DNA of 64,000 nucleotides, from assembly GCF_000744705.1 (NCBI RefSeq), contig NZ_JQML01000001.1, forward strand, positions 4,660,017 through 4,724,016, in the 5' to 3' direction. Source of the DNA: Streptacidiphilus albus JL83. Its GTDB lineage: Bacteria > Actinomycetota > Actinomycetes > Streptomycetales > Streptomycetaceae. Numbering within the stretch: the stretch's first letter is position 1; the number at the start of each line of letters is the position of its first letter. Positions 18,120-64,000 of the stretch are shown piece after piece. Under the pieces are notes generated by a model. The model saw nothing but the letters and a program-made list of their open reading frames with translations, had not been told where the DNA came from and ran no database searches. Position numbers and translations under genes: made by a program.

Positions 18120-18177
18120 GCAGGATCTGGGACGTCTCCGGCCGACGCCGGACCGCAGTCGGCGCCGAGCGCCTGCG

Positions 18178-47061: not shown

Positions 47062-47514
47062 TCAGGGGCGGGCCTGCGGCTCGAAGGCGACCCGGGTCTC
47101 CGGGGCCAGGGCGAGGTCGGAGCCGGTCAGCGTGGTCGGCGTCGCGATCAGGATGTTGTAGTGGTTGGGGAAGTGGCAGGCGTCGAAGCCGAGCACGGTG
47201 CCGACGGCGTGGTCGCCGATCCGGACGGTGTCGCCGCGGTCGATCACACCGGCCCGCTCCAGCTCCACGAAGCCGAGGAAGCCGACGCGGTCGATCCGGG
47301 CGCCGGGCGAGGAGTCGGCGTGGTCGGTGGTCACCAGCTCGTGCACCTCGCCCACCCGGACGCAGCGGCTGGCGTACGGCTCCAGCGACATGCCCCGGTC
47401 CTCGCGCCGGTGCAGCAGCACCTTGACGAGCGAGCCGTGGACGGTGCGCTTGGGCCCGTTCTCGCGGATGGCGGCGATGGCGGCGGCGATGGCGGAGGTG
47501 CGGGTCGTGGTCAT
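47062..47514 (-). CDS. Small conserved protein of the biosynthetic operon
   Basis: This 150-residue soluble protein begins with a short helix (SAIAAAIAAIREN). A beta-rich domain follows: RTVHGSLVKVLLHRRED, RCVRVGEVHELVTTDH, GFVELERAGVIDRGDTVRIGDHAVGTVLGFDACHFPNHYNILI. It could be a DUF6917-type domain, but I am not certain of the family. The ATG overlaps the stop of the upstream Gfo/Idh gene (ATGA), which places it as the last gene of the six-gene minus-strand operon. The beta-rich, short design fits a small-molecule-binding or accessory role. Confidence 0.7.
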   Translation of the reverse strand: MTTTRTSAIAAAIAAIRENGPKRTVHGSLVKVLLHRREDRGMSLEPYASRCVRVGEVHELVTTDHADSSPGARIDRVGFLGFVELERAGVIDRGDTVRIGDHAVGTVLGFDACHFPNHYNILIATPTTLTGSDLALAPETRVAFEPQARP

Positions 47515-48434
47515 CGGGCGACCGCCAGTTCGGCGCGGTAGGCGGCCTCGACCAGCTCCAGGGCGGGCAGGCCGCCGTCGGCCGCCCGGGTGGCGGCCGG
47601 CTCGGCCAGGAGCCTGGTGAAGTCGTCGAGGATGCCCGCGTACTCGTGCCGCAGCGACTCCTTGAAGCCCTGGTAGCCGGCCAGCAGGTCGGCCCTGAGC
47701 ACCGTTCCGTCAGTCAGCGTCGCTTCCACGTCCTTGAGTTCGCCGTCGTACGACCAGTCCAGCTCCACCTGCGCCGGCACTCCGGCGGCGGAGGACAGGG
47801 CCACGGAGGCGCGGCGGTCGGTGCCGGTCGCGTCCCGCTCGATCCGGGCGCCGGTGACCGCGGCCTCGCCGAGCAGCAGCCGGACCAGGTCGAAGGCGTT
47901 CGGACCGTTGTCGGCCACGCAGCCGCCGCCGCATCGTGCCGGGTCCAGGTACCAGCGGTCGCGGCCGACGTGCTCCTCGATCCGCTCGAAGTAGCGGACC
48001 GTCAGCGACGCCACCGGGGCCCGGTCGGGCAGGAGTTCGGCGAGCGCCCGGACATGGGAGTTGTACCGCCGGTGGAAGGCGGTGAGCAGCAGCGCTCCCG
48101 AGGTGTCGGCGAGCCGGGTGAGCCGGCGCGCGTCGGCGGTGGTGATGGCCAGCGGCTTCTCCACGCACAGCGCCCGGCCTGCGGCGAGGACGTCGTGGCC
48201 GATGCCCGCGTGGGCGTCGTTGGGCACGGTCACGATGACGCCGTCCGGGAGCTCCCGGGCCAGCAGCTCGCGGTGGTCCCGGTAGCAGGGCACCCGGCCC
48301 CGCCAGGGTGCCAGGTTGGCCTCGTCCAGGTCGCAGACGGCGGCCAGCCTGGCGTTCGGCGCGGCCTCGATCGCCGCGAGGTAGAACCGGGAGATCACGC
48401 CGAGCCCGACGACGGCGAAGGAACAGGGGCTCAT
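47511..48434 (-). CDS. Gfo/Idh/MocA family oxidoreductase A
   Basis: This 307-residue NAD(P)-dependent dehydrogenase of the glucose-fructose oxidoreductase/inositol dehydrogenase family typically oxidises a sugar or cyclitol hydroxyl to a ketone. It has FAVVGLGVISRFYLAAIEAAPNARLAAVCDLDEAN (Rossmann), VTVPNDAHAGIGHDVLAAG, and LCVEKPLAIT with the EKP lysine. NGPNAFDLVRLLLG corresponds to the catalytic Asp/His region, although a histidine is not evident there. It is about 30 residues shorter than typical members. ATGA overlaps link it to genes on both sides. Confidence 0.88.
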   Translation of the reverse strand: MSPCSFAVVGLGVISRFYLAAIEAAPNARLAAVCDLDEANLAPWRGRVPCYRDHRELLARELPDGVIVTVPNDAHAGIGHDVLAAGRALCVEKPLAITTADARRLTRLADTSGALLLTAFHRRYNSHVRALAELLPDRAPVASLTVRYFERIEEHVGRDRWYLDPARCGGGCVADNGPNAFDLVRLLLGEAAVTGARIERDATGTDRRASVALSSAAGVPAQVELDWSYDGELKDVEATLTDGTVLRADLLAGYQGFKESLRHEYAGILDDFTRLLAEPAATRAADGGLPALELVEAAYRAELAVAR

Positions 48435-49627
48435 CGGCCCACCTCGGCTTCGGCGGCGGTGGCGGCGGCGGTGGCGGCGGTGGGCGGCAGGCGGAGGCCG
48501 TGCGCCTGTGCCAGCTCGGCCAGTTCCCGGTAGCGGGCCGGGTCCAGCAGTACCCCGTCCCGCAGTTGGGCCTGGCTGCGCTCGCCCTCCGCCCAGCCGG
48601 GGTAGCCGACGGGGCGGGCCGGGTCGACCGGCGGGCAGGCCAGCAGGCTGCCGAAGAGGCCGCCGCTGTCGTCGGTGAAGCCCGGCGCGGGGCGCAACAG
48701 GTCCGGGGCGATCGCGGCCACCAGGTAGCCGATGTCGTCGTCCCGGCCGGAGGGTCCGCCGTCCCCGTCCAGTGCCTCCGGGGCGGGTCCCAGCCCGGCG
48801 CCGCCGACCAGCGCGCTCAGCACCTCGACCACCAGGCCCAGGCCGTAGCCCTTGTAGCCGCCGGTGGCCGGGTCCCCGCCGAGCCAGCGCAGGTGCGACT
48901 CGCCCCGGTCGAAGGAGGCCGGGTCGGTGACCGGGCGGCCCGCGTCGTCGGCCAGCCAGCCGGTCGGGACCGCCTCCCCGGCGCGGGCGGCCGCGCGGAT
49001 CCGGCCGGTGGGCACCACCGTGGTGCTCATGTCCAGCACGAAGGGGTGGTGCCGCCCGGCCGGGGCCGCCACGCTGAGCGGGTTGGTGCCGAGCATCGCG
49101 ACCCGGCCACCCGGGGGGCGGGCGATCCGCTGCCGACCGCAGTTGGACGCGACGAGGCCGACCATGCCGCTGCCCACCGCCCGCAGCGCGTGGTGTCCGG
49201 CACAGCCCAGGTGGGTGGCGCCGCGCACCGAGACCAGGCCGATCCCGTACTGTCCGGCCCGCTCGACGGCCAGGTCCATGGCCGCCCCGGCGGCCCACAG
49301 CCCCAGCGCCCGGTGGGCGTCCAGCAGGACGGCCGCGCCGCGGTCGGCGAGCACCTCGGGCTCGGCGGCCGGGTCGACCCGGCCCTCCTCGAACAGCGGC
49401 AGGTAGAGCCGGGTGAGGTTGGCCAGGCCGTGCGAGCTCATCCCGGTGAGGTCGCCGTAGCACAGGGCCTCGGCGGCGGCCAGGGCCCGCTCGGGCCGCA
49501 GACCATGCAGCGCCAGCAGGTCGCCGACGAAACCGACGAGGTCCTGGTGGCGGACCCGGAGGTCGACGGACGGCCCTGCCTGGGGCGGCAGGGACTGCTG
49601 GCTCAGTTGCGGACTGGTGGGCGGCAC
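48431..49627 (-). CDS. Ldh2/malate-L-lactate dehydrogenase family oxidoreductase
   Basis: This 398-residue protein of the YlbC/Ldh2 family has members that reduce or oxidise 2-hydroxy acids, ureidoglycolate, diketo-gulonate or cyclic imino acids with NAD(P)H. The catalytic motif GDLTGMSSHGLANL with its histidine is at about 58-71. RGATHLGCAGHHALRAVGSG and GTNPLSVAAPAGRHHPFVLDMSTTVVPTGRIRAAARAG give the nucleotide region, and GGYKGYGLGLVVEVLSALVGGAG is strongly conserved. The tail is Ala/Thr-rich. Its start overlaps the M20 gene by 25 bp. It is in the same operon as two sugar-type dehydrogenases, so a hydroxy-acid, keto-sugar-acid or imine substrate is likely. Confidence 0.85.
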   Translation of the reverse strand: MPPTSPQLSQQSLPPQAGPSVDLRVRHQDLVGFVGDLLALHGLRPERALAAAEALCYGDLTGMSSHGLANLTRLYLPLFEEGRVDPAAEPEVLADRGAAVLLDAHRALGLWAAGAAMDLAVERAGQYGIGLVSVRGATHLGCAGHHALRAVGSGMVGLVASNCGRQRIARPPGGRVAMLGTNPLSVAAPAGRHHPFVLDMSTTVVPTGRIRAAARAGEAVPTGWLADDAGRPVTDPASFDRGESHLRWLGGDPATGGYKGYGLGLVVEVLSALVGGAGLGPAPEALDGDGGPSGRDDDIGYLVAAIAPDLLRPAPGFTDDSGGLFGSLLACPPVDPARPVGYPGWAEGERSQAQLRDGVLLDPARYRELAELAQAHGLRLPPTAATAAATAAEAEVGR

Positions 49628-50955
49628 GGGGTGCTCCCCTCCTCCTGGATCGGCGCGGACGGACTGGGCAGGTGGGCGTATCGGTCACGGAAGGCGGCGA
49701 GGAGGCGCGGCACGGCTGCCGCGAACGCCTCCAGGTCGTCGAGGTCGGCGAACTCGCCCCGGGCGTGGGCGTGGTTGGCGTCCAGGCTGCCGGGGCCGAG
49801 GACCACGGTGTGGGTGTCGGGGACCCCGGCGAGCCAGATGGCGTCGCAGGTGAAGGCCGGCTCGGCGGCCGGCCAGGACGGGACGCCGGCCGCCGCGAGC
49901 AGCGAACTACCCCAGTCCGAGCGGGAGTCGAGGGCCGGCAGGCCCCGCTTGAGCCAGTCGAGCCGGGTCACCCGGGCGGCGTCGGCGGCGGTCCGGGCGA
50001 ACCGGCGGCTGTCCGCGAAGCGTTGGGAGAAGGCACGCAGCCCGCCGTCGAGCGACTCGGCCAGGCGGCGTTCCAGCCGGTCCGCGGTGGCCCGCGAGTC
50101 GTAGGAGAGGTTGATCAGCAGCTCGCCGGTGCCGTAGACGCGGTTGTGCAGTCGGCCGGTGTGCAGGCCCGCCAGGCAGAGCTGGCCCGCGGCCGGGTCC
50201 AGCTCCGGGTCCAGCTCGGCGGCCAGGTGCTGGGCGAGGAAGCCGAGCAGCACCCCGGCGTTGTGGCCGGCCTCGGGGCGGTCGTCGACGGCGTCCTCGC
50301 CGACGACCCGCAGCCGCGCGGTCATCGACGCCGTGCTGCGGGCCAGGGCGCGACCGCCGGTCGGTTCGCAGAAGACATTGAGGCGGCCGTAGTACCCGGC
50401 CTCGACCAGCGGCCGGGTGCCGATGGTGCCGAGCGCGCCGCCCTCCTCGCCGGACACCGCCTGGATCAGGATCCGGGTGTCGTCCGGAAGGTTCGGCTGT
50501 CCGGCGAGGGCGGAACGCAGTCCGGCGAGCAGGGCCACGGCCGGCCCCTTGGCGTCGACCGCCCCGCGACCATGGAAGCGGCTGCCGTCGAAGGAGACCG
50601 GCTCGGCCCCGGCCACGGTGTCCAGGTGGACGTTGAACATCACCGTGCGGGACCGGAGTTCGCTGTCAGGACCGAGGCTCAGCACCAGGCTGGGCTGACA
50701 GGCCAGGAACTCGGGCTGCTCGACCACCGCCCGACGCACCGACAGTGGGACGTCGGCGCGGTCGGCGCACTCGGGCGGCGCCGGGGCGTGGTGCGCGACG
50801 CGGAAGCCGAGCCCGGCCGCCGCCGCCGCGTAGCTGCGCTGGGCCTGCCAGAGGGCGGGGGGCGGAGCGCCGGCCCCGGTCTCCAGCGGCCCGGCCGTGG
50901 GCAGCCGCAGCAGTTCCAGCAGCAGCGCCCGGTCGGCGGGGGTGAGCAGGCTCAC
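49603..50955 (-). CDS. M20 family metallohydrolase (ArgE/DapE-like deacylase)
   Basis: This 450-residue di-zinc hydrolase has VMFNVHLDTVAGAEP (His-x-Asp), GRGAVDAKGPAVALLAG (bridging Asp), VSGEEGGALGT (catalytic Glu and metal Glu), VFCEPTGG, and a final H-containing NHAHARGEFADLDDLEAFA. A dimerisation lid domain lies about 210-330. Family members remove N-acyl groups from amino acids. In this operon it may deprotect an acylated amino intermediate. The GTG start overlaps the stop of the isomerase gene (GTGA). Confidence 0.88.
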   Translation of the reverse strand: MSLLTPADRALLLELLRLPTAGPLETGAGAPPPALWQAQRSYAAAAAGLGFRVAHHAPAPPECADRADVPLSVRRAVVEQPEFLACQPSLVLSLGPDSELRSRTVMFNVHLDTVAGAEPVSFDGSRFHGRGAVDAKGPAVALLAGLRSALAGQPNLPDDTRILIQAVSGEEGGALGTIGTRPLVEAGYYGRLNVFCEPTGGRALARSTASMTARLRVVGEDAVDDRPEAGHNAGVLLGFLAQHLAAELDPELDPAAGQLCLAGLHTGRLHNRVYGTGELLINLSYDSRATADRLERRLAESLDGGLRAFSQRFADSRRFARTAADAARVTRLDWLKRGLPALDSRSDWGSSLLAAAGVPSWPAAEPAFTCDAIWLAGVPDTHTVVLGPGSLDANHAHARGEFADLDDLEAFAAAVPRLLAAFRDRYAHLPSPSAPIQEEGSTPCRPPVRN

Positions 50956-51905
50956 CGCGCACCCTCCGGTCCGGCGGGCGTGGAGTACCGGACCGCCGGG
51001 TCGGGCAGGACCTCGCGGTCCAGCAGCCGCCGCAGTGACCGGCCGCACTCGTCGAAGGCGGCACGGCAGACCTCGGGCTCGGCCCGGTAGTCCTCGTGCG
51101 GGCGCACCGCGACATGCGGCTCGATGGACAGCGCGCCCCGGTAGCCGTGCGCGAGCAGCAGCCGCACCGCCTCCGCCACCCGCAGTTCGCCGGTGCCGGG
51201 CGGCCGGTAGACCGGAGCGGGGCCGAGCACCGCGTCCTTGATGTGGACGTGGTGGACGTGCCGCGTGTACGGCAGCAGTTGCCGCAGCAGCTGATGCCCG
51301 TCGTAGCCGTGGGCGGGCCCGTTGCCGGTGTCGAAGAGCAGGCCGAAGGCGGTGTCGCCGGCGGCCTCCAGCAGCCGCAGGGCCCGGGAGGCGTCGGCTC
51401 CGGCCCAGCCCGAGCAGTTCTCGTGCAGCAGCATCAGCCCGGCGTCGGCGGCGCGTTCGGCCAGGGCGGTGATCCGGCGGGTCGCCTCCCGTTCCCAGGC
51501 CGCCTCGTCCAGGCCGCCGTCGGGGTAGGACATCACCCGTACCAGCCGGGTGCCGAGAGCCGCGCAGCGGCGGGCCAGCACCTCCAACTCGCGCAGGTCC
51601 TCGGCGAAGTCGCCGGTGGCCGGCCGGGACCAGCCGCCGATCCGGGCGTCCACGGCGACCACGCCGACACCGGCGTCGGCCAGTCGGCCGGCCGTCCGCT
51701 CGAAGGCGGGTTCGGACAGTTCGGCGAGCGCGACGCCGTCCACCGACCGCAGTTCCAGGCTGTGCCAGCCCAGCGTGGTGACGGCCTCGATCTGCCCGTC
51801 GATGCCGAGCGCGGCCTCGTCGCCGATGCCGGTGCAGGTCACACCGGGACCGACGAGACCGGCCCGGCCCCGGAGCGGGGTGGGTTCGAGCAGTTCAGGG
51901 GACAT
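50952..51905 (-). CDS. Sugar phosphate isomerase/epimerase (xylose isomerase-like TIM barrel)
   Basis: This 317-residue AP endonuclease-2/IolE-IolI type TIM barrel has metal ligands at the usual strand ends: the Glu in LMLLHENCSGW, the Asp in GLLFDTGNGPAHG, the His in HHVHIKDAVLG, and the Glu in ALSIEPHVAV. Relatives epimerise keto-sugars or act on inosose. Combined with Gfo/Idh enzymes in one operon it suggests processing of a keto-sugar or keto-cyclitol. It overlaps the second Gfo/Idh gene by 11 bp. Confidence 0.88.
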   Translation of the reverse strand: MSPELLEPTPLRGRAGLVGPGVTCTGIGDEAALGIDGQIEAVTTLGWHSLELRSVDGVALAELSEPAFERTAGRLADAGVGVVAVDARIGGWSRPATGDFAEDLRELEVLARRCAALGTRLVRVMSYPDGGLDEAAWEREATRRITALAERAADAGLMLLHENCSGWAGADASRALRLLEAAGDTAFGLLFDTGNGPAHGYDGHQLLRQLLPYTRHVHHVHIKDAVLGPAPVYRPPGTGELRVAEAVRLLLAHGYRGALSIEPHVAVRPHEDYRAEPEVCRAAFDECGRSLRRLLDREVLPDPAVRYSTPAGPEGAR

Positions 51906-52980
51906 GCGAGAGCTCCCGTTCGGGGTGGTCCTCGATCACCGGCGGACCGCCGTCGGCGGCGCCGAACTGCTTCGCCCGGCTCAGCAGTTCCACGACCCTG
52001 AACTGCCGTTCAAGGTCGGCCCGGAAACCGGGTCCACCGGCGAACCCGGCGGCGAACCCGGCGTAGCTGCGCAGCACGAAGGCGGTGAGCGCGTCGTCGG
52101 CGAAGACCTCCGGGGCCGCGGGCGGCCCGGACTCCCCGGTCGTGAACCTCAGTTGGGCGTACTCGTCGTCGGCGCTGCCGGGGTAGTGGCCGACGGCGGT
52201 CCCCCGGTCGAAGTGCAGGGTGATCCGTCGCTCCCGCACCGGCGAGGTGAGGTCGGAGTGGATCTCACTGCGCACGCCGCTGTGGTGGCGCAGTCCCAGC
52301 CTGGCGCTGCCGAGCCGGGGCAGCAGTGCGGACCCGAGCGCCAGGTCGGTGGTACCGGCGGCGGTGACCTCGGCGTCCCCGGCGAGCTGGAGCAACACGC
52401 CGAGCGCGTGCGGCACCTCGATGTCGAAGGCGGTGGGATGCCCGCAGGTGGCCAGCGAGCGCTGGAAGCGCGGCTTGTACTGGATCACGTCGATGCCGCG
52501 CAGCCGCCCCGGCCCGGTCGGCGACGCGTCGGCGACCAGCCGGACCAGCCGGTCGGTGAGTACGCTCGCCGACCACGGCGCCACCACCGCGACCTCGGCC
52601 TTCGACGCCTCGAAGAGACCGGCCAGGGAGCGGAGTTGCGTGGGCTCGACCGCCAGCGGCTTCTCCAGCACCAGTCGGCGGTAGCCGAGGTCGAGCAGCC
52701 GGCCGACGATGTCGACCCGGGCGACGGGCGGGGTGCAGACATGCACCACGGTCCGGTCGGGCGGCGGCAACTGGGCGACATGCCGCAGTGAGGCGGCCAA
52801 CCGCAGCTCCGGGCCCGCACCGGAACCGCCCGAACGCCCGGCTCCGGCGGGGTGGGGGTCGACGCCGACCAGCGGTCCGGGCGCGAACAACTGCGGCTGC
52901 GCCCGCCGGGCACGCAGCAGCACCGGAATGTGCAACCCGGCTCCCGCACGGCCGAGACCGACCACGAGCGTGTGGAACAT
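51895..52980 (-). CDS. Gfo/Idh/MocA family oxidoreductase B
   Basis: This 361-residue NAD(P)-dependent oxidoreductase is the first gene of the minus-strand operon. It has TLVVGLGRAGAGLHIPVLL with the dinucleotide loop, TVVHVCTPPVARVDIVGRLLDLGYRRLVLEKPLAVEP carrying EKP, and a C-terminal beta-sheet domain (about 150-340) with HPTAFDIEVPHALGVLLQLAG, holding Asp and His in the catalytic position. It differs clearly from oxidoreductase A, so two different oxidations are expected. It is divergently transcribed from the DegT genes across 166 bp. Confidence 0.86.
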   Translation of the reverse strand: MFHTLVVGLGRAGAGLHIPVLLRARRAQPQLFAPGPLVGVDPHPAGAGRSGGSGAGPELRLAASLRHVAQLPPPDRTVVHVCTPPVARVDIVGRLLDLGYRRLVLEKPLAVEPTQLRSLAGLFEASKAEVAVVAPWSASVLTDRLVRLVADASPTGPGRLRGIDVIQYKPRFQRSLATCGHPTAFDIEVPHALGVLLQLAGDAEVTAAGTTDLALGSALLPRLGSARLGLRHHSGVRSEIHSDLTSPVRERRITLHFDRGTAVGHYPGSADDEYAQLRFTTGESGPPAAPEVFADDALTAFVLRSYAGFAAGFAGGPGFRADLERQFRVVELLSRAKQFGAADGGPPVIEDHPERELSHVP

Positions 52981-53146
52981 CGCCTGGAGCAGCCTTCCTT
53001 GGGAGTGTTGCGGCGCTGGTCAGCCTGTGGGCAGCGGTGGGCACAAGTCAAAGTTTGTCCACGTATACCTCTCCAAAAGGGTGAATCAGCAATGAATTCC
53101 CCCTCTCCGGACATTCTGGCTGACGGTGGCTGGGTAGCCTCGGGGC
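52981..53146. promoter_or_regulatory. Divergent promoter of the biosynthetic locus
   Basis: This short AT-rich gap (53041-53110) separates the two arms. On the plus strand TAGCCT (53135-53140) ends 6 nt before the GTG of the first DegT gene, with no ribosome site, which suggests leaderless transcription. On the minus strand CCAAGGAAGG lies about 8 nt before the oxidoreductase B ATG. No clear operator palindrome is seen. Confidence 0.5.
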
Positions 53147-54412
53147 GTGCGTCGACGGACTGCCGCGAGTCAGCCGCGGGCAGCCGCGCGTCTCCGGGAG
53201 GCAGCCATCACCACCGTGACGTCACCGGCCGCGGCGGACCACCCGCCCGGGCCGCTGGTGCCGTTCTTCTCGCAGGCCGCGACCTTCGCGGCGCTGCGGC
53301 CGAGGATCGACCGGGAGCTCAACGAGGTACTCGACGACGGCAAGTTCTCCCACGGCGCCAAGGTCGCCCAACTGGAGCGGGCGCTGGCCGACTACACCGG
53401 CGCCCGGCACGTGATCGGCGTCAACAGCGGCACGGACGCGCTGGTCCTGCTGCTGCGGGCGGCCGGGCTGCAGCCGGGTGACGAGGTCGTCGTCCCCGCG
53501 TTCAGCTTCGTCGCCTCGGCCTCGGCCGTGGTGCTGGCCGGCGGGCGGCCGGTCTTCGCGGACATCGAGCCGGTCGGCTACGGCCTGGACCCGGCCTCGG
53601 CCGAGCGGGTGCTCACCCCGCACTGCCGCTTCCTGATGCCCGTCCACCTGTTCTGCCAACTCGCCGACATGCCGCGCCTCTCGGCCCTGGCCGAGCGGCG
53701 CGGACTGCGGTTGGTCGAAGACAGCGCCGAGGCCATCGGCATGCGCCAGGACGGCGTGCACGCCGGGCTGCTCGGGGCCGGCGGGGTGCTCTCCTTCTTC
53801 CCCACCAAGACCCTCGGCGCGATCGGCGACGCCGGCGCGATCCTCACCGACGACGACGCCATCGCCGCCACCGCCGACGCACTGCGCCACCACGGCCGCC
53901 CCGGTCGGACCATCGGCGACTTCCGCACCATCAACACCAGCAGCGAACTGTCCGGCTGCAACAGCAAGATGGACGACATCCAGGCAGCCGTGCTGCTGGC
54001 CAAGCTGGACCGGCTGGACGCGGACATCGCCCGGCGGGCCGCACTGGCGGCCGCCTACGACGAGCGACTGGCCGGCCTCCCCGGGGTGCTCCGGCTGCCG
54101 ACCGTGGTCGACCGGGGGACCGCGGCCGCCCCGGTCCACTACGTCTACCTGATCGAGGTCGAACGGCGGGACGAACTGGTCGCCCACCTGACCCGGCACG
54201 GCGTGGAGAGCGAGACCTACTACCCGCTGCCGCTGCACCTCCAGCCCTGCTTCGCCGAACTGGGGCACCGGCCGGGGGACTTCCCGCGGGCCGAGGCCGC
54301 CTGCGCGCGCACGGTCGCGCTGCCGCTCTACCCGGACCTGCCGCTCGACGCCGTCGACGCGGTCTGCGACCGCATCCGCAGCTTCTTCACCGGAACCGGA
54401 GCCCGCCCGTGA
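53147..54412 (+). CDS. DegT/DnrJ/EryC1 aminotransferase 1 (sugar type)
   Basis: This 421-residue PLP enzyme transfers an amino group to a keto-sugar or keto-cyclitol. It shows GVNSGTDALVLLLRAAGLQPGDEVVVPAFSFVASASAV, LVEDSAEAIGMRQDG, the Schiff-base lysine in SFFPTKTLGAIGDAGAI, and CNSKMDDIQAAVLLAKLDRLDADI. The Gly-Asp-Ala-Gly after the lysine is typical of the nucleotide-sugar aminotransferase subgroup. The GTG 53147 is preferred because a -10 TAGCCT lies 6 nt upstream; GTG 53216, closer to the conserved start, is the alternative. It overlaps aminotransferase 2 by 4 nt. Confidence 0.9.
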   Translation: MRRRTAASQPRAAARLREAAITTVTSPAAADHPPGPLVPFFSQAATFAALRPRIDRELNEVLDDGKFSHGAKVAQLERALADYTGARHVIGVNSGTDALVLLLRAAGLQPGDEVVVPAFSFVASASAVVLAGGRPVFADIEPVGYGLDPASAERVLTPHCRFLMPVHLFCQLADMPRLSALAERRGLRLVEDSAEAIGMRQDGVHAGLLGAGGVLSFFPTKTLGAIGDAGAILTDDDAIAATADALRHHGRPGRTIGDFRTINTSSELSGCNSKMDDIQAAVLLAKLDRLDADIARRAALAAAYDERLAGLPGVLRLPTVVDRGTAAAPVHYVYLIEVERRDELVAHLTRHGVESETYYPLPLHLQPCFAELGHRPGDFPRAEAACARTVALPLYPDLPLDAVDAVCDRIRSFFTGTGARP

Positions 54413-56409: not shown

Positions 56410-56508
56410 CCTCCCGCATCCTGCACATCGTTGGCGCCGATGTCGTCACGGCCGACCATCCGCTCCCGACGATTCACGGCCGCAGGTTTCAGTAACAGGC
56501 GCTGAACA

Positions 56509-56537
56509 GGGAGCCGCCGGATCCTCCGGTGGCTCCC
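56509..56537. terminator. Terminator after the secreted barrel gene
   Basis: A 13-bp stem with one G-T pair (GGGAGCCGCCGGA, loop TCC) lies about 100 bp after the stop and 32 bp before the next start. Confidence 0.6.
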
Positions 56538-56569
56538 ACCCGTTGACCGACCACCACGTGGAGCCGATC

Positions 56570-57424
56570 GTGAACCTCGCAACCGGCGGAGCGGCCCTCA
56601 CCGCCCCGGCCCTCCCGGACCGCTCCGAAGTCCCGGACCCCGGCGCCGGCTATGCCTTCGACAACCACGGCCCGCACGCCCAGGAGCAGCACCGCTGCCT
56701 GGCCTCGGCCTACGACCCGGTCACCACCGCCCGGCTGGCCGGCACCGGGGTCACGGCCGGCTGGCACTGCCTGGAGATCGGCGCGGGCGGCGGCAGCATC
56801 GCGAGCTGGCTGGCCGAACGGACCGCCCCGGGCGGACGGGTGCTGGCGACCGACCTCAAACCCGAGCTGATCCCGTCCCGGCCGGGGCTGGAGGTGCTGC
56901 GGCACGACATCGTCCACGACCCGCTGCCGGAGGCCGGGTTCGACCTGGTCCACGCGCGGCTGGTGCTGACCCACATCCCGGAGCGCGAGGCCGTGCTGCG
57001 ACGGCTGTGGTCGGCGCTCCGCCCCGGGGGCTGGCTGCAGTTGGAGGAGTTCGACGTCGAGTACGCCCCGGTGCTGCTCGCGCCCGACCGGCGGGCCCGC
57101 GAGGCGTACCAGCTGTTCCAGACGGCCAAGGCGCGTGCTCTGCGCGCGGCCGGTGCGGAGCCGGCCTGGGGCCGGTCCTGCGCCGAGGCGATGCGGGCAG
57201 CCGGCTTCGTCGAGGTCGACCCGGTGCCGCAGCTGGTGCCCTGGGACGCCGGCTCCCCCGGCCTGCAGCTCCAACTGCACCACACCGACCACCTGCGGGA
57301 GGCCCTGTTCGCGCAGGGCATGACTGCCGACCAGCTGGACGAGGCGCGTGCGGTGATGCGCCACCCCGGCTTCCGCGCGGCGTCCTGCGTCCTCTACTCC
57401 GTGCAGGGGCGGAAACCCGAGTGA
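56570..57424 (+). CDS. Class I SAM-dependent methyltransferase
   Basis: This 284-residue UbiE-like methyltransferase has an N-terminal stretch YAFDNHGPHAQEQHRCLASAYDPVTTARL, motif I HCLEIGAGGGSIASWLAE, the acidic residue in VLATDLKPE, DIVHDPLPEAGFDLVHARLVLTHIPER (motifs II/III), and LRPGGWLQLEEFDVEYAPV. The substrate is not predictable; UbiE-like enzymes methylate quinones, polyketides and sugars. The GTG 56570 is preferred, with GTGGAG upstream; GTG 56558 is possible. It opens a block of genes coupled by 4-nt overlaps, and its TGA overlaps the next GTG. Confidence 0.88.
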   Translation: MNLATGGAALTAPALPDRSEVPDPGAGYAFDNHGPHAQEQHRCLASAYDPVTTARLAGTGVTAGWHCLEIGAGGGSIASWLAERTAPGGRVLATDLKPELIPSRPGLEVLRHDIVHDPLPEAGFDLVHARLVLTHIPEREAVLRRLWSALRPGGWLQLEEFDVEYAPVLLAPDRRAREAYQLFQTAKARALRAAGAEPAWGRSCAEAMRAAGFVEVDPVPQLVPWDAGSPGLQLQLHHTDHLREALFAQGMTADQLDEARAVMRHPGFRAASCVLYSVQGRKPE

Positions 57425-59064
57425 GGCAGGGCACCTACGCAGAACCCGGGTCGGTGCTCCGGCCGACGGCGGGCCCCGAGCGGGCAGTGGACCTCGCGGC
57501 CCGGCACCTCACCGCGCTGGGGTGCCGCGCCACCGGGCGGCCCGACGGGGGCCTGGCGCTGCGGGCCGGGCGGCACCTCGCCGAGTGCGCCGTTGACTGG
57601 GCCGGCCCGGTGGAACTGCCGCTGGCCGACGAGTACGACGTCCAGGCCGCCTGCGGCCTGATGGAGGTGCACGGCCGCCGCTTCGGCGGGCCCATCCCGC
57701 TCGGCGTCGACTTCGCGGCCGCGACCGCCGGCGTCCTGGCGGCGCTGGGCGCCTCGGCCGCGCTGTGGGCCTGCGCCCGGGACGGCCGGCCGCGCCGGGT
57801 CCGCACCTCGGTGGCGGCGGCGGCACTGCTCGCCGTCGGCCAGTACCTGGCGGCGGCGACCGCCGACGAGGCCGGGCCGGAGGAGCCCCGGCTGCCCGGC
57901 GGCCCTCCGTTCACCTCGGCCGACGGCGTCCGCTTCGAGCTGGAGTCGCTGGCGGCGGAGGGCTGGCTGGCCTTCTGGACCGGTCTCGGCGTCGGGCGGA
58001 CCGAGGCCGGCCGGGGCTGGGGCGCCTTCCAGCAGCGCTACGCCACGGCGACCTGTGCGCTCCCGGCCGTCCTGTACCGCGCGGCCGGTTGCCGCAGCCT
58101 CGGCGAGCTGACCGGGCTGGCGGAGCAGGCCGGGGTGGACCTGACGCCGGTCCTGGCGCAGCCGCCGGACGGCGCACCCGAGTTGCCCTGGCGGATCACG
58201 CCGACCGGCTCCGCCGCCGACCGGAGCGGCGCCGACCGGAGCAGCGCCGACCGGCCCGCCCCTGCGCGAACCGCCGCCGGTCCGCTGGCCGGACTGGTCG
58301 TGGTGGAGGTGGCCCGGCGGGTCCAGGGGCCGCTGGCGGCGCACCTGCTGGGCCTGCTCGGCGCGCGGGTGGTCCGGATCGAACCGCCGGGCGGCGACCC
58401 GCTGCGCGGCGTGCCGCCGATGGCGGGCGACTGCTCGGCGCGCTTCCACGCGCTCAACCACGGCAAGGAGCGGGTCGAGGCGGACCTCGGCACCGCGGCC
58501 GGCCGTTCCGTGGTGCGGGAGTTGGCGTCCGGCGCGGACGTCTTCCTGCACAGTCTGGCGCCCGGCAGCGACGAGCGGTTCGGCCTGGACGCCGCCCGGC
58601 TGACCGCCGCCCGGCCCGGCCTGGTCTACGCCCGGGCCTCGGGCTGGGGCGCGGAGCGCGGCGAACGCCCGCCGGTGGGCACCGACTACCCGGTCCAGGC
58701 CTACTCCGGCCTCGCCGCCCTGGTCACTCCGCCCGGCCGACCGCCCACGCCCTCGCTGCTGACGCTGACCGACGTGCTGGGCGGGGCGGTCTGCGCCGAG
58801 GGGGTGCTCGGCGGACTGCTGGGCGTGCTGCGCACCGGTCACGGCCGACGGGTGGACAGCTCGCTGCTCTCGGCCGCCCGGCTGCTGTGCAGCCCGGAAC
58901 TCCGCTCCCGGCCACGGCGGCAGGGACCGGAGGCGGCCGGTCCCGAGCCGGCGGAGGCGACGGTCTGCACCGACCTGGCCCGGCTGGCCGACGACCCCCG
59001 CTTCGCCGGCGCGCTGCGGCGCGACCGGTGCGTACTGGTGCGCAGCCCCTGGGACTTCGGATGA
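57421..59064 (+). CDS. Family III CoA-transferase (CaiB/BaiF) with divergent N-terminal half
   Basis: This is a 547-residue protein. The C-terminal half (about 275-490) is a recognisable CaiB/BaiF domain: GPLAGLVVVEVARRVQGPLAAHLLGLLGARVVRIEPPGGDPLRG, HGKERVEADL, RPGLVYARASGWG, and GTDYPVQAYSGLAAL with the likely catalytic aspartate. The N-terminal 270 residues look like a degenerate, permuted CoA-transferase part (LPLADEYDVQAACGLMEVHGRR; GVDFAAATAGVLAALGASAAL) lacking that aspartate. The usual C-terminal CaiB segment is short. It would move CoA from an acyl-CoA to another acid. It is followed with a 4-nt overlap by an acyl-CoA/AMP ligase. Confidence 0.78.
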   Translation: MRQGTYAEPGSVLRPTAGPERAVDLAARHLTALGCRATGRPDGGLALRAGRHLAECAVDWAGPVELPLADEYDVQAACGLMEVHGRRFGGPIPLGVDFAAATAGVLAALGASAALWACARDGRPRRVRTSVAAAALLAVGQYLAAATADEAGPEEPRLPGGPPFTSADGVRFELESLAAEGWLAFWTGLGVGRTEAGRGWGAFQQRYATATCALPAVLYRAAGCRSLGELTGLAEQAGVDLTPVLAQPPDGAPELPWRITPTGSAADRSGADRSSADRPAPARTAAGPLAGLVVVEVARRVQGPLAAHLLGLLGARVVRIEPPGGDPLRGVPPMAGDCSARFHALNHGKERVEADLGTAAGRSVVRELASGADVFLHSLAPGSDERFGLDAARLTAARPGLVYARASGWGAERGERPPVGTDYPVQAYSGLAALVTPPGRPPTPSLLTLTDVLGGAVCAEGVLGGLLGVLRTGHGRRVDSSLLSAARLLCSPELRSRPRRQGPEAAGPEPAEATVCTDLARLADDPRFAGALRRDRCVLVRSPWDFG

Positions 59065-60692
59065 GCAACGGCAGCTGGGAGTCGGGGAACGGGCTGGTGC
59101 TGCGCGACCTGGTACCGGGGCGGCTGCGGCGCCAGTGGGCCGACCGGGGGGACTGCCCCGGTCTCGGCCTCTACCAGTCCTTCCACGCGCAGGTGCGGAG
59201 GCGACCCGGGCGGATCGCCGTCCAGGACCCCGAGGCCGACCTGAGCTTCCGGGAACTGGACGACCGGGTGCGGGAGATGGCCGGGGCACTGCGTGCTCGC
59301 GGCATCGGGCCCGGGGACGTGGTGGGGATCCGGGTGCCCGACAGCCGGCATGCGCCGACCGCGGACCTGGCCGTCGCCGCAGTGGGGGCGGTGGCGCTGC
59401 CCTGGCCCACCGGCCACGGCCGACGGGAGGGCCGGGCGCTGCTGGCCGGCTCCCGCGCGGTCGCGCTGATCACCGACCGGGTGGTCGACGGGGCCGACGA
59501 CTCCCCCTATCTGCGGCACCGGCTGACGCTGGATCAGCTCCGGGCGGCCGGAGCCGGGCGGCTCCCGTCCGATTTCCGGCCGGCCGTGGTCGACCCCGAG
59601 TCACCGGCCCGGATCCTGGTCTCCTCAGGGTCGGAGGCGGCGCCGACGATGGTCGCCTACTCCCACAACGCCGTGGTCGGCGGCCGGGGCGCCTATGTGG
59701 AGGCCGTGCTGCGGGTGGGGACCGACCCGGAGGCGGGGACCGCGGGCCCCGCACGGGTGCTGGTCATGGTGCCGCTGGCCTCGTCCTTCGGCTCGCTGGG
59801 CGTGGTGGCGCTGGCCCGCTGCGGCGCGACGCTGCAGTTGCCCGGCCGCTTCGGGGCCGCGACGGCGCTGCGGGCCGTCACCGGCCTGCGGCCGACCCAC
59901 CTGGTCGGGGTGCCGACCATGCTGCGGCGGATGGCCGACCACCCGCCGGTCCCGGGCGAGGACCTCTCCTCGCTGCGGGCCGTGGTCTCCAGCGGCGCGC
60001 TGCTCGACCCGGCCGTGCTGTCCGCCGCGCTGGCCAGGTTCCGGCGTCCGCTGGTCAACGTCTACGGGTCGAGCGACGGCGTCAACTGCCGCACCGTCTG
60101 GACCGCGCCCGGCGGCGACGTGCGCCGGGTCGGGCGGCCCGACCCCCGGGTCACCGACATCCGGATCTGCGGGGCGGACGACGAGCCGCTGCCCCCGGGG
60201 GAGAGCGGTGAGATCCAGGCGCTCGGGCCGATGAGCCCGCTCTGCCACGTCGGCGCGCCCGCAGCCGACCGGCGCCACCGGACCCCCGACGGCTGGGTGC
60301 GCACCGGCGACCGGGGCGTGCTCGGTCCCGACGGCGAGCTGCTGGTTCTGGACCGGATCAAGCACGTGGTCATCAGGGGCGGTTGGACCATCAGCCCGGC
60401 CGAGGTCGAGGCGCTGCTGCACGCCCACCCGGCCGTCGCGGAGGCGGCCTGCGTCGCCGTGCCCGACCCCGACCTGGGCGAACGGCTGTGCGCCTGCCTG
60501 GTCCAGCGTCCGCGAACCGCAGCGCTCGGCGTCGACCTGCTCGGCGCGTACCTGGCCGGGGAGCACGGGCTGGAGCGGCGCAAGCTGCCCGAGTTCGTGC
60601 TCCAGCTGGACTCCTTCCCGCTCGGTCCCACCGGGAAGGTCTGCCGGAAGTCGCTGACCGCGACCGCGCAGGCCCGGTTCGGGCCGCCCTGA
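59061..60692 (+). CDS. Class I adenylate-forming enzyme 1 (acyl-CoA/AMP ligase) with altered P-loop
   Basis: This 543-residue ANL-superfamily protein activates a carboxylic acid as AMP ester and possibly CoA thioester. The A3 loop reads LVSSGSEAAPTMVAYSHNA, where the usual lysine after proline is threonine and the Thr-Gly pair is Glu-Ala. The Glu-Ala form resembles cyclohexane/cyclohexene-carboxylate and related CoA ligases, but the missing lysine is odd. VYGSSDGVN, GWVRTGDRGVL, LDRIKHVVIRGGWTISPAEVE and the A10 lysine in PLGPTGKVCRKSL are present. It is coupled to the CoA-transferase by ATGA. Confidence 0.85.
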   Translation: MSNGSWESGNGLVLRDLVPGRLRRQWADRGDCPGLGLYQSFHAQVRRRPGRIAVQDPEADLSFRELDDRVREMAGALRARGIGPGDVVGIRVPDSRHAPTADLAVAAVGAVALPWPTGHGRREGRALLAGSRAVALITDRVVDGADDSPYLRHRLTLDQLRAAGAGRLPSDFRPAVVDPESPARILVSSGSEAAPTMVAYSHNAVVGGRGAYVEAVLRVGTDPEAGTAGPARVLVMVPLASSFGSLGVVALARCGATLQLPGRFGAATALRAVTGLRPTHLVGVPTMLRRMADHPPVPGEDLSSLRAVVSSGALLDPAVLSAALARFRRPLVNVYGSSDGVNCRTVWTAPGGDVRRVGRPDPRVTDIRICGADDEPLPPGESGEIQALGPMSPLCHVGAPAADRRHRTPDGWVRTGDRGVLGPDGELLVLDRIKHVVIRGGWTISPAEVEALLHAHPAVAEAACVAVPDPDLGERLCACLVQRPRTAALGVDLLGAYLAGEHGLERRKLPEFVLQLDSFPLGPTGKVCRKSLTATAQARFGPP

Positions 60693-60749
60693 CGCCGATC
60701 CCCGCCCCCGGCTCCCCCGCACGAGCCTGTTCACCAATCAAGAGGACCC

Positions 60750-61769
60750 ATGCCTTCCCTCGATCCCGTACCGGCGTTGGAACTGTCCCAGCCGGCGGCG
60801 CCCGCCCAGCCGGCGGCCGCCGCCACCGACGCGGCGCCGCCGATCGCCGCCGGCAGCTGGCGTGCCTACGCCAAGCTCGCGAAGCTCGACATCCTCGACT
60901 ACTACCTGAGCATCCCGCTGGTCGCCGCGATGCTGCTGCCGCTGGGCCGGACCTCGCCCTGGCGGGCCGCCGCCGTCCTCGCCCTCTACCTGCTGGGCGA
61001 GTTGACGATGGTGGCCGGCATGGTCGCCTTCGACGACGTGACCGGCTACCGCGACGGCAGCGACAAGGCCAACTACGGCCCGGACGCCGCCGCCCGGCGG
61101 CTGGCCCGCAAGCCGCTGGTGGCCGGCACCCTCACCGAGCGGCAGGCGATCCGCTTCGGCTGGCTCGCGGTCGCGGCCTGCGCGCTCCTCTGGTCGGCCG
61201 CCGTCGCCGTCGCCCCGCTCCGGCCCTGGTGGGCGCTGCTCGGCATCGCCGCCTGCGTGGGGCTGGGCTTCCAGTACACCTGGTGGCTCAAGCTCAGCTA
61301 CCACGGCCTGCAGGAACTCTTCATGGCCGCGCTGGGCTGGGCGTTCGTGCTGCCGGCCTACGGCCTGCTGGCCGGTCGCCCCACCGGCTTCGTGCTGGTG
61401 CAGACCCTGCTCTTCGGCCTCGGCCCGCTGCTGTTCGGGGTGTACTCCAACATGAACGACGCGGACGGGGACCGGGCCGTCGGCCGGCTCACCGTCGCCG
61501 CCGTCGCCGGTCCGCGCGGCAACGCCTGCTTCATCGCGGCGGTCTCCAGCCTGGAAGCGGTGCTGGTGGTCGGTTCGGCGGTGGTCGGCCTGGCGCCCTG
61601 GTGGTTCCCGCTGCTGATGTCACCGGCGCTCGCGCTGCGCGGGGCCCAGTTCCTCCAGGGGATCAAGGACGGCGACGTGCTCGGCGCACGCAGGCGCGGC
61701 ATCACCGTCCACCGGCTCTCGGTGCTGCTGATGATCTCCGCCGACCTGCTGGCGGCGGTGCAGTCGTGA
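60750..61769 (+). CDS. UbiA family prenyltransferase
   Basis: This 339-residue membrane enzyme with about nine helices transfers a prenyl chain to an aromatic or other acceptor using Mg2+-bound diphosphate. The first Asp-rich motif is at D95-D105 (AFDDVTGYRDGSD) and the second at N236-D241 (NMNDADGD). These are variants of NDxxDxxxD and DxxxD, so it is a divergent member. An Ala/Pro-rich N-terminal extension of 35 residues precedes helix 1. It begins 57 bp after the ligase gene, with AAGAGGA before the ATG. The acceptor is unknown: an aromatic acid, quinone or amino-cyclitol are possibilities. Confidence 0.88.
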   Translation: MPSLDPVPALELSQPAAPAQPAAAATDAAPPIAAGSWRAYAKLAKLDILDYYLSIPLVAAMLLPLGRTSPWRAAAVLALYLLGELTMVAGMVAFDDVTGYRDGSDKANYGPDAAARRLARKPLVAGTLTERQAIRFGWLAVAACALLWSAAVAVAPLRPWWALLGIAACVGLGFQYTWWLKLSYHGLQELFMAALGWAFVLPAYGLLAGRPTGFVLVQTLLFGLGPLLFGVYSNMNDADGDRAVGRLTVAAVAGPRGNACFIAAVSSLEAVLVVGSAVVGLAPWWFPLLMSPALALRGAQFLQGIKDGDVLGARRRGITVHRLSVLLMISADLLAAVQS

Positions 61770-63352
61770 AGCCGCTCGACCCCGGGACGCTGTTCGACAC
61801 CCTCGCCGCGCGAGGCTCGCGCACCCTGGTGCGGTTGAGCCGGCCGCTGGACCTCGCGCCCGACGCCGGCACCTGCTGGGACGTGCGTGCCCTGGCCCGG
61901 CTGGTCCGGTCCACCGCCGCCCGGCTGGCGGCGGCCGGGGTCCGGCCCGGCGACCACGTCGCCGTCGTCAAGCGCAACCACTGGGACTACGTGCTGCTGG
62001 CCTGCGCCGCGGCCCGGATCGGCGCGGTGCCCGCGCTGCTCTCGGACCGCGTGCCGACCGCCGCACTGGACGTGCTGCTGGCCCGGCTGCAGCCCGCCGT
62101 CCTGCTGACGGAGGGTCCGCTGCTGCGCGCGGCGGCGGAGCAGGGCACCGACCTCACCCGCCATGCCGCCCGCACCCTCACCCTGGACCCGGGCCCCGGC
62201 GCCCTCGCCGCGCTGCCGGACGACGGCCCGTGCCCGGTGCCGCGCCGCCACGACGACGATCCGCTGGTGGTGATCCACACCTCCGGGACCACCGGCGTCC
62301 CCAAGCTGGTGGTGCACTCCACCACCACCCTGATCCGGCGGCTGGCCGGGTTCGAGGCGCGCCGCTGGCCGGTGCTGACCGCGCGCGGCGACGACACCGT
62401 CGCCAGCGCCATCTCCTTCGCCCACGGCCGCGCGCTGGCCTGGACCGTCAGCGCGCTCTGGCACCGCCCGCGGCAGCTGGTGATCATCGACGACTGCGAC
62501 CCGGCCGCCGCCCTGCCGGTGCTGCGCGCGCACCCGCCCACGGTGCTGGAGGCACTGCCGTCCGGCTACGTCCGCTGGCAGTCCTCGGCCGCGGAGCCGG
62601 ACCATCCCTTCCGCGACGTGCGGCTGTTCATCAGCACCTTCGACGCCGTCCACCCGCCCACCGTGCGGACCCTGCTGGCCGCGACCCGCCACCGCCGTCC
62701 GGTCTGGATGCAGGGCTGGGGACAGAGCGAGACCGGTCCGCTGTCCTTCCGCTTCTTCACCCGCCGGTCCCTGGCCGTCCGCGAGGGCCGGCACCCGACC
62801 ACCCGCAACCTCGGCCGTCCGGTGCCGGGCCGGGTCGCGCTGCGGGTGGTCGACCCGCAGACCTTCGCGCCGCTCCCGCGCGGCCGCACCGGACTGGTGC
62901 TCGCCCGGACCCGGGCGCGCTGCGTGGCCTACCTCGGCGAGGAGGAGCGGCTGCGGGAGAAGGTGCACGGCGCCTGGTTCAACACCGGGGACCTCGGCTC
63001 GCTCACCCCGAGCGGGGCACTGCTGCTGTTCGACCGCGAGGTCGACATGATCCCGGGCACCAGCTGCGTGGAGCTGGAGGACGTGCTGCACGACCGGCTC
63101 GCCGAGGTCGAGGAGGCCGTGCTGCTCGGAGCGCCCGGCCGGGACCCGCTGCCGCTGCTGGTCACCACCGGCGGCACGCTGGACCGCCACCGCTGGGCGC
63201 ACGCCGTGCACGACCTCCCGCCGCTGGACCAGCCGGTGCTGGTCGACCGCGACGCCGTGCCGCGCACGGCCACCGGCAAGGTGCGCCGGCACGAGCTGCG
63301 CCACCGCTACCTCCAGGGCGCGGCCGGCTTCGGCACCGGGCGGTGGACATGA
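61766..63352 (+). CDS. Class I adenylate-forming enzyme 2 (acyl-CoA/AMP ligase)
   Basis: This 528-residue ANL-superfamily protein has intact motifs: VIHTSGTTGVPKLVVHSTTTL (A3, with lysine), GWGQSETGPLSF (A5), WFNTGDLGSLTPSG (A7), FDREVDMIPG (A8) and PRTATGKVRRHELR (A10 lysine). It is distinct from ligase 1, so two acids or two steps are activated in this locus. No carrier-protein domain is fused. The GTG start overlaps the UbiA stop (GTGA) and the TGA overlaps the next ATG. Confidence 0.88.
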   Translation: MKPLDPGTLFDTLAARGSRTLVRLSRPLDLAPDAGTCWDVRALARLVRSTAARLAAAGVRPGDHVAVVKRNHWDYVLLACAAARIGAVPALLSDRVPTAALDVLLARLQPAVLLTEGPLLRAAAEQGTDLTRHAARTLTLDPGPGALAALPDDGPCPVPRRHDDDPLVVIHTSGTTGVPKLVVHSTTTLIRRLAGFEARRWPVLTARGDDTVASAISFAHGRALAWTVSALWHRPRQLVIIDDCDPAAALPVLRAHPPTVLEALPSGYVRWQSSAAEPDHPFRDVRLFISTFDAVHPPTVRTLLAATRHRRPVWMQGWGQSETGPLSFRFFTRRSLAVREGRHPTTRNLGRPVPGRVALRVVDPQTFAPLPRGRTGLVLARTRARCVAYLGEEERLREKVHGAWFNTGDLGSLTPSGALLLFDREVDMIPGTSCVELEDVLHDRLAEVEEAVLLGAPGRDPLPLLVTTGGTLDRHRWAHAVHDLPPLDQPVLVDRDAVPRTATGKVRRHELRHRYLQGAAGFGTGRWT

Positions 63353-64000
63353 CCGACCTCGACGTGGCCGTGGTCGGCGCCGGGATCTCCGGCCTGGCCG
63401 CCGCCCACCTGCTGCAGCGCGCGGGCCGCTCGGTGCAGGTCTTCGAGTCGGCGGAGCGGGTCGGCGGACGGATGGCCTGCACCCGCCTCGACGGCTACCT
63501 GATCGACGAGGGGGCGGAGACCATCGCCGCCCGCGGCTACCAGGCCACCTGGCGGCTGATCCGCGAGGTCGGCATCCCGACCTCCGGCATCCTGCCCATC
63601 GGCGGCGCGATCGCGGTCTGGCGGGGCGGCCGGGCGCACGCCCACCTGGGCCACCCCCGCGGACTGCTGACCGGGGCCGGGATGTCCTGGCGCGGACGCC
63701 TCGGCTGGCTCCGATTCACCGCCGAACTGATGGCCCGGCGGCGGGAGTTCGACCCCGACCGGCCGGAGTCCACGCCGCTGGGCGCGCGCACCGTCGCCGA
63801 GCACGGCCGGCGCTACCACCCGGACCTGCACGACTACCTGCTGCAGCCGCTGGCGAGCCACGGCTTCGGCTACCGTCCCGAACGCTCGACGCTGGCGCCG
63901 ATCGTGGCCTCCATGCTCGCGGTCGGCGGGGTGGGCGCGCAGTGGCTGACCTACGACACCGGGATGGACACCCTCGCCCGCGCGCTGGCGCGGCGCGTCC
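63349..64000 (+). CDS. FAD-dependent oxidoreductase (protoporphyrinogen oxidase/amine oxidase-like), cut by window end
   Basis: The first 217 residues are visible. They show LDVAVVGAGISGLAAAHLLQRAGRSVQVFESAERVGGRMACTRLDGYLIDEGAETIAARG, the two N-terminal FAD motifs of the HemG/HemY-flavin amine oxidase/carotene desaturase family. Next comes a region with WRLIREVGIPTSGILP, as in coproporphyrinogen oxidase relatives. No signal peptide is seen. In this operon an oxidation, desaturation or aromatisation of the prenylated or aminated product is likely, rather than heme synthesis. The ATG overlaps the ligase stop (ATGA). Confidence 0.85.
   Translation, partial: MTDLDVAVVGAGISGLAAAHLLQRAGRSVQVFESAERVGGRMACTRLDGYLIDEGAETIAARGYQATWRLIREVGIPTSGILPIGGAIAVWRGGRAHAHLGHPRGLLTGAGMSWRGRLGWLRFTAELMARRREFDPDRPESTPLGARTVAEHGRRYHPDLHDYLLQPLASHGFGYRPERSTLAPIVASMLAVGGVGAQWLTYDTGMDTLARALARRV

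Follow-up and report, generated by a model that had tools for sequence, protein, structure and literature searches.

At the right-hand end of a 64,000-nucleotide stretch of the Streptacidiphilus albus JL83 genome (C1:4660017-4724016 in a one-contig genome of 9.9 Mb; this whole stretch is called the window here) lies a biosynthetic gene cluster in which no polyketide synthase (PKS), nonribosomal peptide synthetase (NRPS) or terpene cyclase was recognised. Its genes form two divergent arms, and the data are best read as supporting a single pathway to which both contribute, because their clustering is conserved despite changes in layout and because both are kept where they lie apart. We consider it an even call whether this pathway runs through two modules to a meroterpenoid built on a diamino sugar-acid-derived unit; every substrate, step order and product in that scheme is our proposal. 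The gene families, the conserved clustering, the co-occurrence and the gene fusions described below are established. The claims that we hold most firmly are that the arms make up one pathway and that the cluster represents a conserved family for which the searchable literature yielded no counterpart; those about the identity of substrates are the weakest.

Co-occurrence and conservation of the two arms

We followed the arms through 391 genomes of the order, using the DUF6917 gene as a marker of the sugar arm and the UbiA prenyltransferase gene (matches counted at E up to 1e-40) as a marker of the other. DUF6917 was present in 42/391 genomes and UbiA in 43/391; both occurred in 39 and neither in 345 (Fisher test, 1.6e-45, kinship ignored). 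Within 35 of the 39 genomes the two markers were no more than 30 kb apart. The remaining four comprise G353 and G370, where a single contig carries both, 199 kb and 185 kb from each other respectively, in alike layouts, and two drafts (G240, G310), where a contig break may be behind the separation. Among 14 genomes of the same genus, UbiA (E up to 1e-20) and DUF6917 were found in the same four. DUF6917 without UbiA was seen in three genomes (G220, G254, G390) and UbiA without DUF6917 in four (G169, G209, G292, G386). In G254 and G390 the DUF6917 gene is divergent and set in other contexts. Three of the four UbiA-only matches show 39-41% identity and have other neighbours, and are therefore probably other UbiA types. 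This leaves two true exceptions: G169, whose UbiA (52% identity) stands with ANL2 and without DUF6917, and G220, which has the sugar arm and lacks UbiA at E 1e-40. An earlier note on this DNA had joined the arms on account of a shared promoter. The presence of both markers in 39 genomes, against three and four with one, supports that step. The note had also set the separate occurrence of the arms in other genomes against a common pathway; S. fuscans (G003/G785), G353 and G370 do have clearly separate arms, but all of these retain both.

Gene calls came from a codon model trained on the region, families were assigned by Pfam and NCBIfam scans, and the locus was read on past the window end, up to window-equivalent position 80000. 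The features are as follows.

47062-47514, minus: DUF6917 protein, 150 aa (PF21891, 191 bits)
47511-48434, minus: GfoA, Gfo/Idh/MocA dehydrogenase, probably of aldose-1-dehydrogenase style (Pfam, alignment, Asn179)
48431-49627, minus: Ldh2-type 2-hydroxyacid dehydrogenase (PF02615, 313 bits; PDB matches are malate and L-sulfolactate dehydrogenases)
49603-50955, minus: M20 deacylase/amidohydrolase, ArgE/DapE-like (PF01546, 54 bits; conservation)
50952-51905, minus: xylose-isomerase-like TIM barrel (PF01261; alignment of 17 sequences)
51895-52980, minus: GfoB, divergent Gfo/Idh dehydrogenase (PF01408, 24.8 bits against a cut-off of 24; start corrected)
52981-53257, no strand: divergent intergenic region between GfoB and DegT1
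53258-54412, plus: DegT1 sugar aminotransferase (PF01041, 351 bits; best PDB match 2oga, then 7b0d and WbpE)
54409-55548, plus: DegT2 sugar aminotransferase (PF01041, 300 bits; best PDB match 4qgr, then 2oga and 7b0d)
55909-56409, plus: predicted secreted beta-barrel of the allene oxide cyclase (AOC)/dirigent/Diels-Alderase type (predicted fold)
56558-57424, plus: MT1, S-adenosylmethionine-dependent methyltransferase (Pfam; fused to ANL1 in 6 loci)
57487-59064, plus: CaiB/BaiF family III coenzyme A (CoA)-transferase with an extra N-terminal region (PF02515, 223 bits, two stretches)
59061-60692, plus: ANL1 acyl-activating enzyme (PF00501/PF13193)
60750-61769, plus: UbiA intramembrane prenyltransferase (PF01040, 63.3 bits against a cut-off of 34.2)
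61766-63352, plus: ANL2 acyl-activating enzyme (PF00501)
63343-64749, plus, running beyond the window end at 64000: AmOx, flavin amine-oxidase/PPOX-like (PF01593, 158 bits; full gene at L010:3343-4749)
window-equivalent 64828-65169, plus, past the window: small secreted protein, 113 aa, without Pfam family
window-equivalent 65247-66128, plus, past the window: geranyl diphosphate (GPP)-methyltransferase-like gene

The gene calls and Pfam scans agree with the families, gene order and strands given in the earlier note. Its total of 13 genes is wrong, as the families it listed add up to 14, and its plus arm lacked the gene at 55909-56409. The frequent 4-nt overlaps it described are exact at six junctions, DegT1-DegT2 among them, and three more junctions overlap by 25, 11 and 10 nt. 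DegT1 most likely starts at 53258, because a conserved MPFF opens this protein in other loci (e.g. L151, L127); the divergent gap is therefore 52981-53257. No sigma-70-like promoter was found in this gap, and short blocks in it (GTCAA, GGGTGAA) are common to three Streptacidiphilus genomes. Past 64 kb, where the note had advised extending the locus, the same strand goes on with the small secreted protein and the GPP-methyltransferase-like gene. The next two genes encode a protein without family and a bacterial proteasome activator (Pfam), which probably puts the end of the cluster near 66.1 kb. The 17 cluster proteins that were scanned included no recognised regulator or transporter.

A scan of one genome per species across 84,980 species yielded 91 confirmed UbiA relatives. 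The 80 that were kept come from ten or more genera of actinobacteria (Streptacidiphilus, Kitasatospora, Streptomyces, Nocardiopsis, Streptomonospora, Actinokineospora, Actinomadura, Nonomuraea, Streptosporangium, Glycomyces and others). For every locus the view is limited to 10 kb per side (about 21 kb at most), so that absences are not final and presence counts are lower bounds. ANL2 was present in 77 of the 80 loci, AmOx in 76, DegT1 and DegT2 in 70 each, MT1 in 58, GfoB, the TIM barrel, M20 and Ldh2 in 55 each, GfoA in 54, CaiB in 48, DUF6917 and ANL1 in 47 each, the small secreted protein in 40, the barrel in 9 and the GPP-methyltransferase-like gene in 3. GfoB, TIM, M20, Ldh2, GfoA, DegT1, DegT2, UbiA and ANL2 stood together in 48/80. 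DUF6917 was out of view in 33 loci. When 22 of these were checked, all 22 genomes contained one DUF6917 gene and a DegT1 (E up to 1e-110), and in 16/22 UbiA lay on the same contig as DUF6917 no more than 31 kb away; thus the arm had been hidden by the 10-kb flank. The six others have UbiA on a different contig, which is short (13-41 kb) in five; only in S. fuscans (G785) are both arms on long contigs and clearly apart. A second UbiA-AmOx pair (56%, 61%) was also seen in G003 (L018:9206-11525), with other genes around it and some 15 kb away from the first.

GfoB and DegT1 share a strand in 28 loci and are read from opposite strands in 27, so that the divergent layout is not required. By contrast, the order within the minus arm was invariant wherever both neighbours were seen: GfoA-DUF6917 in 47/47 loci, Ldh2-GfoA and M20-Ldh2 in 52/52 each, TIM-M20 in 53/53 and GfoB-TIM in 54/54. 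Several neighbours are fused: ANL1::MT1 in L084, L092, L098, L107, L112 and L116, CaiB::ANL1 in L087, M20::Ldh2 in L066, and GfoA::DUF6917 in L144 (G220). These come from automatic gene calls in which sequencing errors are possible; they suggest three units, namely GfoA with DUF6917, M20 with Ldh2, and CaiB-ANL1-MT1. A family of EF-hand proteins (~175 aa, e.g. L127:5705-6244; assigned by Pfam on one member) occurs in 47/80 loci, often between DUF6917 and DegT1.

Cluster enzymes and a proposed pathway

Conserved residues and alignments give clues to the sugar-arm enzymes. Asp175 of GfoA is found in 50/50 aligned rows and Asn179 in 49/50, with His in one; many members of the Gfo family have His at the latter position. 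Residues 4-244 align with L-arabinose 1-dehydrogenase (phmmer), GfoA's DNGPN falling on DPGIN, whose Asp and Asn we take to be catalytic. Two structures with His at the Asn179 place, 3kux and 6nor, outscore L-arabinose 1-dehydrogenase as matches. Since Asn occupies the His position and the protein aligns with L-arabinose 1-dehydrogenase, GfoA more likely makes a lactone at C1. This weakens the earlier pairing of two ketone-forming dehydrogenases with two aminotransferases, in which Ldh2 may instead give the second ketone. K107 and H191 of GfoB are present in 54/54 rows, and its PDB profile matches are weak. E162, D192, H219 and E262 of the TIM barrel are invariant in 17 sequences and presumably represent the metal-site pattern of xylose-isomerase-like enzymes. 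The lysine that binds pyridoxal 5'-phosphate is conserved in DegT1 (K184, 59/59) and DegT2 (K194, 69/69). The ten best solved structures for these two include 2oga, 7b0d, 4qgr, WbpE and QdtB, several of which, we assume, act on 3-keto sugars. CaiB retains D400 in 38/38 rows. DUF6917, predicted to be a small beta-barrel (AlphaFold2 pLDDT 89.6) whose likeness to the DgpB-like subunit of C-glycoside cleavage is equivocal, gains a firm genomic context here. Divergent DUF6917 domains also lie beside carbamoyltransferase, PALP and thiamine diphosphate enzymes (L145:8558-10159, L146:9716-10006); in L145 the domain makes up the C-terminal end of a 533-aa protein.

In 12/80 loci, three of them only partly in view, a nucleotide-sugar dehydrogenase gene is no more than two genes away from a cluster gene. 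It adjoins DegT1-DegT2 in L151 and L153 and UbiA-ANL2 in L152 and L154, and it is also found in the G220 cluster. In L152 a gene for an MMPL-family transporter (L152:17184-19409) stands in the row with UbiA, ANL2, the nucleotide-sugar dehydrogenase and a flavin enzyme. The genome of the window has five homologues of this dehydrogenase elsewhere.

On the prenyl side, the Asp-rich motifs of UbiA are, by alignment, FDDVTGYRDGSD and NDxxGDRAVGR. The predicted model of the overlooked gene at 55909-56409 has the AOC/dirigent/Diels-Alderase barrel fold. The GPP-methyltransferase-like proteins stay under the 400-bit cut-off of the GPP 2-C-methyltransferase family NF041943 (379.8 bits for the window-side copy, 338.3 for L142), against 504.4 and 529.6 bits for the two other copies in the genome of the window. 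In a 13-sequence FastTree, the copies from the window side, G011, L079, L080 and L142 group in a single clade (support 1.000). No terpene cyclase appeared in a Pfam scan of the cluster and the next two genes, to 67926. The GPP-methyltransferase copies of L167 and L169 adjoin encapsulin-cargo terpene cyclases; at L168 the single neighbour examined gave no match, and at L170 the neighbour is a branched-chain aminotransferase. As a cyclase neighbour is thus inconsistent, a missing one is weak evidence by itself. L130 also has, close to the cluster (15913-20019), a gene for a family 2B encapsulin shell and one for an encapsulin-cargo polyprenyl transferase; by BLAST clustering, the polyprenyl synthase family occurs in 7 Actinokineospora loci and the encapsulin family in 9 loci.

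In the pathway that we propose, module A (GfoB, the TIM barrel, M20, Ldh2, GfoA, DUF6917 and the DegT pair, with a nucleotide-sugar 6-dehydrogenase in some loci) would make a diamino sugar-acid-derived building block, starting most likely from a UDP-hexosamine. C6 would be oxidised in those loci that have the 6-dehydrogenase, GfoB would oxidise C3, and DegT1 would transaminate, as in the WbpA-WbpB-WbpE route. M20 would strip an N-acyl group; GfoA would oxidise C1 to a lactone, and DUF6917 would act on the GfoA product. The TIM barrel might isomerise or dehydrate, and Ldh2 could produce an alpha-keto acid that DegT2 would aminate. Module B consists of UbiA, AmOx and ANL2, to which CaiB-ANL1-MT1 can be added as an optional unit for acyl activation and methylation. 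This module would carry out acid activation, prenyl transfer, acylation and oxidation to give a lipophilic meroterpenoid, whose prenyl chain is perhaps methyl-geranyl in some strains and whose final cyclisation the secreted dirigent-type barrel may steer.

Several observations weigh against this scheme. The substrates assigned to all cluster enzymes are read from sequence. GfoB is remote from characterised dehydrogenases, the best NCBIfam match over 21 members having E 6.7e-5. The nucleotide-sugar dehydrogenase is unseen in 68/80 locus windows and in the window itself, where a copy from elsewhere would therefore be needed. Neither a UDP-releasing glycosidase nor a prenyl-diphosphate synthase was identified in the window cluster, and CaiB and ANL1 occur in 0/10 Actinokineospora loci. 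A relative of UbiA can also be a terpene synthase or have other lipids as its substrates. The co-occurrence is mostly between physically linked genes. Finally, an extra copy of UbiA-AmOx away from the arm, joined by ANL2 in 2/3, was the locus first retrieved in S. griseofuscus, G798 and G799, where a second UbiA lies ~9 kb from DUF6917; module B may therefore have other partners.

Alternative readings

That the arms are two unrelated operons, mere neighbours that spread together, appears very improbable to us. The separate places of the arms in a few genomes would fit such an origin, and joint transfer alone could suffice to explain a co-occurrence that is mostly linked (35/39 within the order; 16/22 on one contig within 31 kb). 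However, both markers are found in 39 genomes against one in 7, the arms occur in both strand arrangements, and they are retained together where clearly apart. Improbable too is a diamino-cyclitol pathway of the streptidine/spectinomycin kind, with later prenylation as in BE-40644 or the ebo operon. The two Gfo/Idh and two DegT genes, the weak IolE-likeness of the TIM barrel (31.9 bits) and the title of 7b0d (glutamine--scyllo-inositol transaminase) would suit it, as would the case for UbiA plus cyclitol hybrids made in the ebo paper (PMC5133447). Yet no sugar-phosphate-cyclase domain was found in the 17 cluster proteins scanned (inositol itself would need none), GfoA resembles C1-aldose dehydrogenases, and M20 and Ldh2 would be left unexplained. 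Thus, of the two products named in the earlier note, a diamino sugar-derived unit is favoured and an amino-cyclitol is less likely, there being no cyclase among these proteins. A role of UbiA as an intramembrane terpene synthase or lipid-sugar transferase, with an envelope glycolipid or amino-sugar lipid as product, is in our view quite unlikely. UbiA-type terpene synthases exist (PMC9835599), and the MMPL-family gene in the UbiA-ANL2 row of L152 would agree with an envelope lipid; the GPP-methyltransferase-like partners in five clusters point instead to a short prenyl diphosphate, and the cluster proteins scanned included no recognised glycosyltransferase.

The remaining alternative concerns the product of module A and comes from G220, where a cluster of ~20 kb holds all of module A. 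Its upstream part contains a GfoB orthologue (profile E 7.9e-75), two ATP-grasp ligase-like genes, an MFS gene and TrpF. After two opposite-strand genes, an unbroken plus-strand run starts with a nucleotide-sugar dehydrogenase, TrpD, TrpC, TrpB and TrpA, and continues with DegT1 (51%), DegT2 (46%), TIM, M20, Ldh2 and GfoA::DUF6917. TrpD, TrpB and TrpA exceed their curated cut-offs; TrpF (163.7 of 215) and TrpC (244.2 of 260) are below them. Neither TrpE nor TrpG was recognised among the gene starts read and the 10 chosen proteins scanned with hidden Markov models, a subset of the genes. Two further TrpD genes lie elsewhere in the genome; the cluster TrpD has the motif KAGNR, whereas both other copies have KHGNR. 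Module A is thus portable, and this setting suggests that its product may replace anthranilate in a tryptophan-like route.

On this basis module A might turn an amino sugar into an anthranilate-like (hetero)aromatic amino acid, which UbiA would prenylate and which TrpD, F, C, B and A of G220 would turn into a tryptophan analogue. We regard this as possible, though doubtful. In its favour are the complete module A beside these trp genes where TrpE and TrpG went unrecognised, the additional TrpD genes and the altered motif His of the cluster copy. UbiA enzymes usually require an electron-rich acceptor, and the window cluster has no other obvious gene for making one; the pyrrole acid of congocidine, of amino-sugar origin, offers a precedent. 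On the other hand, the evidence comes from a single genome at identities of 42-51%, two of the Trp proteins fall under their cut-offs, the absence of TrpE and TrpG is based on gene starts and ten scanned proteins, and no aromatising enzyme is evident. The trp genes may merely supply tryptophan, with anthranilate coming from elsewhere. In its full form, the proposal sees module A as a portable means of converting a hexosamine into an electron-rich amino (hetero)aromatic acid, which would serve as prenyl acceptor in a widespread family of meroterpenoids and in G220 as an anthranilate surrogate carried to a natural tryptophan isostere by a dedicated TrpD, F, C, B and A. This we put forward tentatively, as rather unlikely. 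If true, it would be a second sugar-to-aromatic route beside that of congocidine and would yield a natural tryptophan analogue.

Relation to known systems

The earlier note knew of no pathway with this gene set, and searches of an open-access paper library likewise gave no described counterpart and no assigned product. A cluster without recognised PKS, NRPS or terpene cyclase is present in about a tenth of the sampled species of the order (39/391) and in many other filamentous actinobacteria. We expect that cluster finders keyed to core synthases would likely overlook it, and the comparison reveals a reusable building-block module.

Parts of the cluster have relatives in described pathways. 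It shares a GPP-methyltransferase-like gene with the 2-methylisoborneol pathway, but here the protein belongs to a distinct clade under the family cut-off and no terpene cyclase was found among the scanned neighbours. BE-40644 and ebo likewise combine a UbiA-superfamily member with sugar-processing genes, and ebo has a TIM barrel (PMC5133447); among the 17 proteins here no Pfam match to a sugar-phosphate cyclase (DHQ-synthase family) appeared, whereas the DegT pair and ANL ligases are present. The congocidine pathway to 4-acetamidopyrrole-2-carboxylate, cited in PMC4047045, is another of the closest systems.

Xiamenmycin is made by a UbiA-type prenyltransferase with an ANL ligase and a flavin enzyme, and benzastatin by a UbiA-type enzyme with a GPP methyltransferase. 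Both combinations are seen here, but the acceptor in those pathways is a hydroxy- or aminobenzoate, in place of which the present cluster has an eight-gene sugar module. The pyrrole of congocidine derives from sugar; as here, sugar-processing genes, an amidohydrolase among them, lead to an amino-acid building block (a likeness of description, not of gene sets), with the difference that congocidine is assembled by an NRPS. WbpA-WbpB-WbpE is the route to UDP-2,3-diamino-uronic acids. The present cluster differs in having two aminotransferases together with Ldh2, M20, the TIM barrel, DUF6917, UbiA and the ligases, and in that the 6-dehydrogenase is often unseen; it shares with that route a Gfo/Idh dehydrogenase, a DegT aminotransferase for which WbpE is among the best PDB matches and, in some loci, the nucleotide-sugar 6-dehydrogenase.

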